64,000 nt of DNA from Thermodesulfobium narugense DSM 14796 (lineage in GTDB: Bacteria; Thermodesulfobiota; Thermodesulfobiia; Thermodesulfobiales; Thermodesulfobiaceae), in NCBI RefSeq assembly GCF_000212395.1, contig NC_015499.1, forward strand, positions 771,501 to 835,500. Direction: 5' to 3'. How positions within the stretch are numbered: the stretch's first letter is position 1; the number at the start of each line of letters is the position of its first letter. The notes under the pieces are model-generated. The model was not told the origin of the DNA and did no database searches. It was given only the letters and a program-made list of their open reading frames with translations. The translations under genes were made by a program, and so were the position numbers. Shown piece after piece: positions 45,133-52,799 of the stretch.

Positions 45133-46628
45133 CATTAAGTGCACTATTGATTGATACTGTATCAATACAGGAATATATTTTTTCAAGTAATAAGTTAAAA
45201 GAAAATATCGGCGCATCATTTTTGGTTAAAAAAATATATAAAGATGTTCTAAAAGAAGCCTTAAAAATAACATTTGGCAGGGATATAGACATTAACGAAT
45301 GGAAGAATAATCCTTCTTGTATCAAAATAATCCAAGCAAATGATAAAGTTGAGATAGGATATATAGGTGGAGGAAATGCTTTAGTTTTATTTAAAGGTAA
45401 AGATAAAACAACAGAATTTATAAAAAATTATACGAAGCTTCTTTTAGTTAAAGTACCAGGTTTAAAAACAGCTTTTGGGATAATACATGAATTTGATTTA
45501 AAAGACTTTAAAAATTCTATGAAAAATTTACACGAGAACCTAAAAGAAAATAAAAACAAATATTTTCCTAACGTTACACTACCTAAATATGGTTTTACAC
45601 TTGATTGCCCAAGAACCAATGAAAGCGCAGAGCCCTTTAAAGATGATGATGGAAAGTTTGTATCATCAGTAGCTTTGGCTAAATTAAAGTTTTCAGACAA
45701 AGCAAAAGATATACTCAATGATAAATATACCTTAACAAACGACATTGAAGAATTAGGTCAACAAGAGGGCAGAGACTATATTGCAGTTGTGCATATTGAT
45801 GGGAATAAAATGGGTGAGAGATTTTCAAAATGCGAAAGTCTTATAGAATATAGAAATTTGTCGATTGGTGTGGGGAATGCTACAGAAAAGACATTTAAAA
45901 AAATGATAGAGATTTTAATAGATAAAATTGAGAAAAGTAAAACTTTTGATTCCAAAGATGGAGAATTTAAATTAAGTACGGAAAATGGCAAAACCATATT
46001 GCCAATAAGACCAATTGTTTTAGGCGGAGATGATATAACTTTTATTTCAGATGGAAGATTGGGGGTTTGGTTAGCTGAAATATTTATTAAGGAATTTGCT
46101 ACTCAAACTATAAACAATGAATCTTTATCTGCATGTGGAGGTGTATGCATAACAAAGACGAAATATCCTTTTTATAGAGCTTATAAATTAGCAGAAGATT
46201 TAATTGACAGAGCTAAAAAGGAATCGAGAAAAAAGGAAGGTTCTTATATTGACTTTTTTATCTCTTCATCTGGATGGAGCGGCAGCTTAGATGATATTTT
46301 TAATAAACATTTATCTACTGTAAATGGTAATCTTCATTTTGGACCTTATAGAGTAGATTCGACGAATGATGAAAAGGCAATAGATAATTTGAAGAATATT
46401 ATTAAAGAATTCAAAAATATTCCCAAAAATAAAGTAATGAAACTAAGAGAAATGCTATTTGAAGATAAAGATAATGCGAAAATTTATGTGGAAGAATTAA
46501 AAGATAGTGGAATAAAATTGCCAGAGATAACAAACAGATCCTATCATTTAGACATATGGATAGATGGTAAAACACCATATTTTGATGCTATAGAGCTTAT
46601 AGATTTTTATCCGGAGGGATTATTATGA
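45129..46628 (+). CDS. cas10: Short Cas10 with GGDD cyclase motif, no HD domain
   Basis: A 499-residue Cas10 that begins almost directly with the first palm domain (IDTVSIQEYIFSSNKLKENIGAS). It has palm residues in AVVHIDGNKMGERFSK (about 215-230) and the cyclase motif RPIVLGGDDITFISDG (about 290-305), followed by a GGVCITKTKYPFYRAYKLAE motif. No HD nuclease domain is present, so DNA cleavage is unlikely but cOA synthesis should be possible. ATGA overlaps at both ends place it in one transcript with the CARF gene and Csx10. Confidence 0.88.
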   Translation: MTLSALLIDTVSIQEYIFSSNKLKENIGASFLVKKIYKDVLKEALKITFGRDIDINEWKNNPSCIKIIQANDKVEIGYIGGGNALVLFKGKDKTTEFIKNYTKLLLVKVPGLKTAFGIIHEFDLKDFKNSMKNLHENLKENKNKYFPNVTLPKYGFTLDCPRTNESAEPFKDDDGKFVSSVALAKLKFSDKAKDILNDKYTLTNDIEELGQQEGRDYIAVVHIDGNKMGERFSKCESLIEYRNLSIGVGNATEKTFKKMIEILIDKIEKSKTFDSKDGEFKLSTENGKTILPIRPIVLGGDDITFISDGRLGVWLAEIFIKEFATQTINNESLSACGGVCITKTKYPFYRAYKLAEDLIDRAKKESRKKEGSYIDFFISSSGWSGSLDDIFNKHLSTVNGNLHFGPYRVDSTNDEKAIDNLKNIIKEFKNIPKNKVMKLREMLFEDKDNAKIYVEELKDSGIKLPEITNRSYHLDIWIDGKTPYFDAIELIDFYPEGLL

Positions 46629-50789: not shown

Positions 50790-52799
50790 ATGGAAAAAGC
50801 TAAAATTAGCTTACAAAAAACAAAAAAAGGGTATGATTATGTACTAACTTTTGAAAATGGGAAAAATCTAAAAGCTCAAGGGTTTAACCTACCTCATAAT
50901 ATTGATGGAAAAGAATGCGAAGTTGAAAGAATAAAAGGAGTTATTGAGAAAATAGTGATTAATGGAAAAGAATATAATAAGTCAAATTCATCAAAAAACT
51001 TAGATCCTCAAAAAAATGTAAAGACCGAAAATCACCAAAAAAACCATGAAACTAAACAAAAAATACAATATAGACCAACTGCTAAAGCTCCTTATAATTT
51101 TATTCCACTAAATGAATGTGTAGTAAAAGCACAAGATATTCCTGAGTTTAATAAATATCATAAAGATAGATATTCAGGGTATATAGACCTTTTAATTACT
51201 ACAAAAACGCCTGTATATATAAGACGAGATAAAGAAGAAAGTGAGTTTTTTTCTATAAAAGATGGTAAACCAATAATCCCTGGTAGTTCTTTAAGAGGGA
51301 TGAGCAGGACTTTGGTGGAGATTGTTTCTTTTGGGAAATTTGTCTTGTTTGATAAAGATAAAAGGTTATATTATAGAGATGTTGCTGGCAAGAGGTCTAC
51401 TTTAAAAGATATATATTCTTCTAAAATTAATAATGATAAAATAAAAGCTGGATATCTTATATATGATAAAGGGAAATATAAGATTATTCCAGCGAGCTAT
51501 GATAGATTTAAAGATACATCTAAAAAATTTATGATAGAAATAGATAATAATGATTATAAAGTTTGGTCTGGAGGTATGCAGGGGAAAAGGAAAAATTGGA
51601 TTGTGAAATCTATTAGTAATTCAGGTGATTTTATAAAATTATCTGAAAATGACTTGAAAGATTATAAAAACGACACAAATAGGAATATACCCGAATACTA
51701 TGACATTTTAAAAATGGCTAAGGATAAAGAGGTTACGTTATCAAACAATGAAAAAGTAGAATTACCCAATGGTGTTCCTGTATTTTATGTTGAGTATGAG
51801 GATAAAAATAGGAACAAAAAATTAGCATTTGGGCATACGGGATTCTTTAGATTGCCTTATGATTTAACAATAGGTGCTCATGTATCCGAAAACTTAAAAT
51901 CAGACGATATAATAGATTTTACAGAAGCTATTTTTGGGAAAGAAAGCAAATGGGCAAGTAGAGTATTTTTTGAAGATGCTGTTTTAGATGAAGGTCAAAG
52001 TGATATATTTATGGAAGAGACTTCGCCTAAGATTCTTGCTTCACCAAAACCTACGGCTTTTCAGCTTTACTTAGAGCAGCCTGAAGAAGAAAATACTGAT
52101 TTAAATAAACTTAAACATTGGGATGATAAAGACGCACTTATTAGAGGCTATAAACTTTACTGGCATAGGAATACACCAGATGATTCAACAGAAAAATACA
52201 GTTGGAGTGAAGGAAAAGCAATAAATGATACTCAGCATACTACTGTAAAACCTATCAAAAAAAATGTTAAATTCAAATCGCGTATACGTTTTGAAAATCT
52301 CACAAAAGAAGAGTTAGGCACTTTATTATTTGTATTAGATTTACCAGAAAATTGTTGCCATAAGATTGGTATGGGTAAACCATTAGGTTTGGGAAGTATA
52401 GAAATAAAACCGAGTTTATTTATAATAGATAGAAAAAAAAGATATTCGTCATTATTTAATAATGATAAATGGAACTTAGGGGATGAAGATAAAACAAGTG
52501 AAAAAAATGAGTTTAAAGTAGCATTTGAAAAGTATATTTTAAAGAATATTTCTCATAAAGACAGAAATAATAAAAATTCTCTTTGGGACACACCAAGGTT
52601 AAAACAATTAAAGGCAATGTTAAATTGGGATAATACTGATATTCAAAATTGGCTTGAAAAAACAAGATATATGATGATAGAATGCCCAAAAAACGAATAT
52701 GATTGTATTTGTTCTGATTTTAAAAGTGATAATAAGTGTAATGAATATAAAAATAAAAAAGTTTTGCCATATCCCAATAAAATATGTAATCTTCTGTAA
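50790..52799 (+). CDS. TIGR03986-type RAMP (Cas7 with large insertion)
   Basis: 669 residues. A small N-terminal beta domain (about 1-60) is followed by a Lys-rich linker and then [16 protein letters not shown], a RAMP start: [38 protein letters not shown] long insertion carries [18 protein letters not shown], and the RAMP closes with [20 protein letters not shown] late cysteine set ([19 protein letters not shown]) near residues 630-650 may bind metal. It follows Csx19 by 17 bases behind GGAGG and ends the operon. It matches the Cas7-insertion subunit of type III-D variants. Confidence 0.8.

Follow-up and report, generated by a model that had tools for sequence, protein, structure and literature searches.

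Apparent independent origin of a Cas7-Cas5-Cas11 chain in a type III-D CRISPR operon of Thermodesulfobium narugense

A run of multi-domain RAMP genes in Thermodesulfobium narugense DSM 14796 raises the question of which type III CRISPR effector it encodes, where the small subunit of that effector resides, and how its fused chains came about. We analysed a stretch of 64,000 nucleotides (hereafter the window; NC_015499.1, positions 771,501 to 835,500) from a genome that consists of one 1.9-Mb contig. Briefly, we consider it highly probable that the locus is a complete III-D effector operon of III-Dv architecture, in which Cas7 was fused separately from the Synechocystis-type lineage, starting from an ancestor in which Cas5 and Cas11 were already joined and cas7 stood alone. 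The operon is a single plus-strand run (43798-52799) that encodes a CARF-PDDEXK protein, Cas10, a 734-residue RAMP protein, a 467-residue double Cas7, Csx19 and a 669-residue Cas7-insertion protein (Table 1). The last four ORFs (46625-52799) are intact and overlap or are closely spaced, with a plausible ribosome-binding site before most of them. They were assigned by NCBIfam and PADLOC to Csx10/Cas5_IIId, a Csx7/Csm3-type double Cas7, Csx19 and the TIGR03986 Cas7-insertion family. Together with the PDB matches, these assignments bear out the first-pass annotation, which had placed double-Cas7, Csx19, Cas7-insertion and Cas10 in one operon and had noted, correctly, that no separate cas11 gene is present in it. 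No solved structure was matched by the sequence of Csx19.

Table 1 Features of the III-D operon and its surroundings in the window.
Feature	Position	Strand	Evidence
Cas6 of neighbouring type I-B operon	27071..27829	+	TIGR01877 7e-34
CRISPR array, 87 identical 30-nt repeats	35536..43729	+	repeat scan
IS21 element (istA, istB)	41222..43635		
CARF-PDDEXK type ancillary effector, 444 aa	43798..45132	+	PADLOC CARF4--CARF_PDDEXK 1.7e-180; Pfam CARF_Card1 1e-10
Cas10, 499 aa	45129..46628	+	PADLOC Cas10d 1.7e-150; PDB 8s9t_C 7e-26
GGDD palm motif of Cas10, residues 299-302	46023..46034		
Cas7-Cas5-Cas11 fusion, 734 aa	46625..48829	+	PDB 8s9t_A 2e-11; AlphaFold2 model vs 8s9v_A E 3e-38
Cas7 domain, about residues 1-210	46625..47254	+	Pfam RAMPs 4-190
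D23 of Cas7 domain, predicted catalytic	46691..46693		aligns with D26 of Synechocystis; D in 39/39 aligned loci
Charged linker Cas7/Cas5, about 26 residues (211-236)	47255..47332	+	pLDDT below 50 at 215-232
Cas5 (Csx10-type) domain, residues 237-574	47333..48346	+	cas5 profile 306 bits; TIGR02674 Csx10 3e-18 (under that model's cut-off)
Cas11-type helical domain (predicted), about residues 590-731	48392..48817	+	hhalign to III-Dv Cas11 domains E 5e-7; Foldseek
Cas7-2x, 467 aa	48819..50222	+	PDB 8s9t_D 2e-25
D34 of Cas7-2x, predicted catalytic	48918..48920		aligns with D33 of Synechocystis
D261 of Cas7-2x, predicted catalytic	49599..49601		aligns with D246 of Synechocystis
Csx19, 186 aa	50212..50772	+	TIGR03984 4e-37, 127 bits (cut-off 35)
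Cas7-insertion, 669 aa	50790..52799	+	TIGR03986 1e-135; PDB 8s9t_E 7e-17

The 734-residue protein had been described as Csx10-like, with two RAMP segments and a helical tail. A phmmer search of the PDB matched it to one chain, 8s9t_A, which is named Cas7-Cas5-Cas11, over residues 5-565, and the AlphaFold2 model of the full chain (pLDDT 76) matches 8s9v_A across its entire length (E 3.2e-38). The two RAMP segments thus correspond to a Cas7 and a Cas5 domain joined by a charged linker; the Cas5 and tail parts of the description hold (PADLOC Cas5_IIId matches the protein at 5e-118), and the first segment, which had been counted as part of Cas5, is Cas7. It is unlikely that the single frame stems from an assembly error or a frameshift, since an independent contig (L009) carries the same single fused ORF of 732 residues and no alternative start codon is found at residues 205-249.

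The C-terminal tail was predicted by AlphaFold2 to be all-helical (pLDDT 79, pTM 0.73), with helices at residues 593-622, 631-643, 647-659, 662-669, 673-678, 691-700 and 706-731. When the tail alone was submitted to Foldseek, 8s9t_A ranked first (probability 0.85, TMq 0.55) with a weak E-value of 1.2, and 8s9x_A and 8s9v_A were also among the matches. When 24 related tails were compared by hhalign with 12 Cas11 domains of III-Dv, the E-value was 4.9e-7 across 144 columns; with the four sequences of the window's immediate subclade only, no significant match to III-Dv Cas11 was obtained. The 160-residue tail is thus, by profile and model, a predicted Cas11-type domain, as the first-pass annotation had proposed. 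We regard it as very unlikely that the tail is a lineage-specific helical extension and not a small subunit. Pfam gives no match in the tail and the Foldseek E-value of the isolated tail is weak, as such an extension would have it, but the profile match spans 144 columns of the Cas11 domains, the best PDB matches are III-Dv chains, and three unfused III-D1 loci hold a stretch of 400-800 nt after cas5, at the expected place of the tail. Two of these three stretches contain an ORF directly 3' of cas5, of 128 residues in L092 (2853-3239) and of 183 residues in L093 (6530-7081). Judged by position, which is the sole basis, the two small ORFs are probably separate cas11 genes; a profile comparison of them with the tails gave no significant match.

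A Csx10-type Cas5, a III-D Cas10 and Csx19 are all present, which identifies the operon as III-D. The III-Dv architecture is seen in the single Cas7-Cas5-Cas11 chain, the gene order (cas10, fusion, Cas7-2x, csx19, Cas7-insertion) and the three Cas7 aspartates. Gene order, family scores and 8s9t matches agree with the earlier view of a III-D variant whose backbone subunits are fused. Membership of a III-Dv clade with Synechocystis, by common descent of the fusion, is contradicted by tree placement and by the AU tests, among which cas7-insertion by itself gives no rejection (p 0.06). A clean grouping with standard III-A or III-B, which the first-pass annotation had named as speaking against its reading, was not seen; both types are ruled out by family scores and gene content, with the Csm and Cmr models below cut-off and no separate cas11. 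A III-E or III-I effector is ruled out as well, with the Cas7-11e model far below cut-off. The Cas7-11 proteins of these types share fused Cas7 and Cas11 domains of III-D descent with the window, but form one large effector, and their Cas10 has been lost in III-E and, in III-I, is inactivated and highly diverged, whereas the window has a Cas10 with GGDD, a Cas5 and Csx19.

The suggestion of a new Cas5/Cas11 fusion arrangement did not survive. A structure from 2024 (PMC11026444, PDB 8s9t) already shows a Cas7-Cas5-Cas11 chain in the III-Dv complex of Synechocystis, whose gene order is that of the window, and it is this chain, 8s9t_A, that the window protein matches. The III-Dv system of Synechocystis sp. 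PCC 6803 is like the window in its five genes and their order (the order was also read from the plasmid record), in the domain order of the fusion, and in Cas7-2x, Csx19, Cas7-insertion, the three catalytic Asp residues and the Cas10 GGDD motif. In contrast, the two fall in separate clades in all trees, the fusion is 734 residues long in the window and 791 in Synechocystis, the linkers are unrelated, and only the window operon has a CARF-PDDEXK gene directly upstream and no cas6 or cas1-cas2 of its own.

Relatives were gathered using the 734-residue protein, Csx19 and the PADLOC Cas5_IIId model, and genes were then called on the loci. Three architectures were identified: 13 classic fused loci, among them Synechocystis and Nostoc edaphicum; 29 split loci, where a cas7 of 180-270 residues is followed by a Cas5-Cas11 gene of roughly 490-600 residues; and three unfused III-D1-like loci (L092, L093 and L134). 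The usual arrangement among relatives, seen in the 29 split loci, is a Cas5-Cas11 gene that lacks Cas7. These loci, which come from cyanobacteria and from other bacteria (for example on a plasmid of Nostoc sp. ATCC 53789, L024, and in L065 and L128), are the nearest relatives of the window in every tree and share its gene order and a one-chain Cas5-Cas11, but their cas7 is a gene of its own. Most of them also have CARF-PDDEXK upstream; a CARF gene longer than 300 residues lies upstream of cas10 in 21 of the first 23 split loci, as in the window, and is mostly missing from the classic fused loci. The unfused loci have a similar order (cas10, cas7, cas5, cas7, cas7, csx19), but their Cas7 genes are single-domain, their Cas5 is about 390-427 residues long, and two of the three carry the small ORF after cas5. 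In the contig L009, which is labelled a MAG, the fused operon of the window recurs at 86% identity. Upstream of its operon lies an extra protein (2826-4127), judged by eye to be possibly of CARF type; accessory effectors may therefore be exchanged among close relatives.

The history of the fusion was examined with a first tree set of 39 loci and a larger set with eight loci more, in which several rows are long-branched or AT-biased. In all six gene trees of the first set, the window and L009 group with the split loci L065 and L066, away from the 13 classic fused loci, with supports of 100/99 (cas10), 100/99 (cas5-11), 100/97 (cas7-2x), 98 (csx19), 98 (Cas7 domain) and 100 (cas7-insertion); the concatenation also puts them among split loci. 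A single fused clade was rejected by the AU test for five of the six genes (cas10, p 1.4e-4; csx19, 0.002; Cas7 domain, 0.0036; cas5-11, 0.0096; cas7-2x, 0.012) and strongly for the concatenation, with cas7-insertion alone leaving it unrejected (p 0.061). In the larger set, the corresponding p values are 2e-6 for cas10, 0.015 for cas5-11 and 0.037 for cas7-2x, and split loci are once more the nearest neighbours (L128, L129, L130, L065 and L066, with L131 added for cas5-11 and cas7-insertion). From the trees and AU tests, Cas7 has therefore most likely been joined to Cas5-Cas11 twice. We accordingly regard it as likely that III-D systems gave rise to the Cas7-Cas5-Cas11 chain on two or more occasions, once in the Synechocystis-type lineage and once in that of the window, from a widespread ancestral state of Cas5-Cas11 with separate cas7. 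The junction is consistent with a separate fusion: nothing in split Cas7 proteins corresponds to the charged linker of the window protein, and this linker also differs from those of III-Dv. Codon 237 of the fused gene (ATA) aligns with the ATG start of the split cas5 gene in L065, which in an AT-rich genome is by itself only suggestive as a sign of fusion.

The two fused groups share an identical domain order, and the cas7-insertion AU test taken alone is compatible with one fused clade, as would be expected if one fusion had preceded the divergence of III-Dv and the split loci and had later been broken into cas7 and cas5-cas11 in split lineages. We consider such a history improbable. When the trees are rooted on the unfused III-D1 loci, which form the outgroup, two gains cost fewer steps than one gain followed by at least two fissions, the linkers of the two fused groups are unrelated, and the cas10 tree makes a split locus, L135, the sister of the classic fused loci. 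This divergent III-D locus (5544-7645) sits on a long branch and its place is unsure; its placement suggests that the classic fused lineage likewise came from a split ancestor. Transfer or recombination of the fused gene, or part of it, from a III-Dv donor is scarcely credible: the 734-residue protein is absent from all three congeneric genomes searched and the operon itself is therefore probably mobile, but in trees of either portion of the fused gene, Cas5-Cas11 or Cas7, the window falls with split relatives, as it does for all other genes.

Upstream of the III-D operon lie a type I-B operon (cas6, cas8b, cas7, cas5, cas3, cas4, cas1 and cas2) and then the CRISPR array. Since cas6, cas1 and cas2 are all missing from the III-D operon, its crRNAs probably come from this adjacent array, and the I-B Cas6 is the likely crRNA processor for both systems; the array may also serve the I-B system alone. 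The repeats fall into 85 at 35536-41177 and two at 43636-43729, with an IS21 element between them. The element sits within a CRISPR repeat, is bordered by a 7-bp target duplication (GTTTTTA), and has an istA that is apparently frameshifted and split over two ORFs. Outside the window, the same genome holds another type III locus (G000 C1 1781572-1785551), which has a 909-residue Cas10-type frame and two RAMP matches.

The positions of D23, D34 and D261 are nearly invariant across all loci, with the register of D261 taken from the alignment, and these residues are predicted to be the catalytic aspartates. Cas10 carries a GGDD palm motif, and no HD domain was found in it by Pfam and PADLOC searches. 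The CARF-PDDEXK protein is a predicted cyclic-oligoadenylate sensor. In its family near III-D operons, the place where we presume the ExK of the nuclease motif to align is occupied in almost all of 23 aligned proteins by a conserved S(C/L)(T/S)T, the exceptions being SCTA in L070 and SVST in L079 and L084; the nuclease chemistry may therefore differ from that of Card1. The Synechocystis residues that correspond to the three aspartates, D26, D33 and D246, were tested as catalytic (PMC11026444). D140 of Synechocystis, the second metal ligand, is unconserved in both groups. Among four arginines named for the Synechocystis Cas11 domain, R706, R769 and R773 are unconserved in the aligned window protein, and R678 matches R636 only with a one-residue shift of the alignment; catalysis at two sites may therefore differ in detail.

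By analogy, crRNA from the adjacent array, probably cut in trans by the I-B Cas6, would be held by single copies of Cas10, Cas7-Cas5-Cas11, Cas7-2x, Csx19 and Cas7-insertion. Within the 734-residue protein, Cas5 would cap the 5' handle of the crRNA, the Cas7 domain would supply one backbone unit, and the helical tail, in the role of the small subunit, would turn back to lie along the Cas7 filament. Three cuts in the target RNA are expected, made by D23 and by D34 and D261 of Cas7-2x, and target binding would turn on Cas10, whose cyclic oligoadenylate is expected to activate CARF-PDDEXK.

The Cas5/Cas11 fusion is already known. The new point, which comes from the trees and was not part of the first-pass annotation, is its joining with Cas7 in an apparently independent event. 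Our literature search, which lay mostly outside subscription papers, found no report of a repeated Cas7-Cas5-Cas11 fusion or of loci with split cas7 and Cas5-Cas11. Repeated fusion has a precedent in the family, since the Cas7-11 proteins of III-E and III-I are given independent origins from different III-D variants in the updated classification (PMC12669027). III-Dv is presented as a step in evolution that lies between multi-subunit type III effectors and those made of a single protein. If our reading is true, stepwise fusion, with Cas5 and Cas11 and Cas7-2x joined first and Cas7 later, would be a repeatable path and not a single bridge to single-protein effectors. For comparing structures, the window operon would add a second fused complex, one that comes from another bacterial lineage. 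If two lineages each built the three-domain chain and most relatives go no further than Cas5-Cas11, the route would be repeated and ordered, and could be tested by fusing and splitting the genes.
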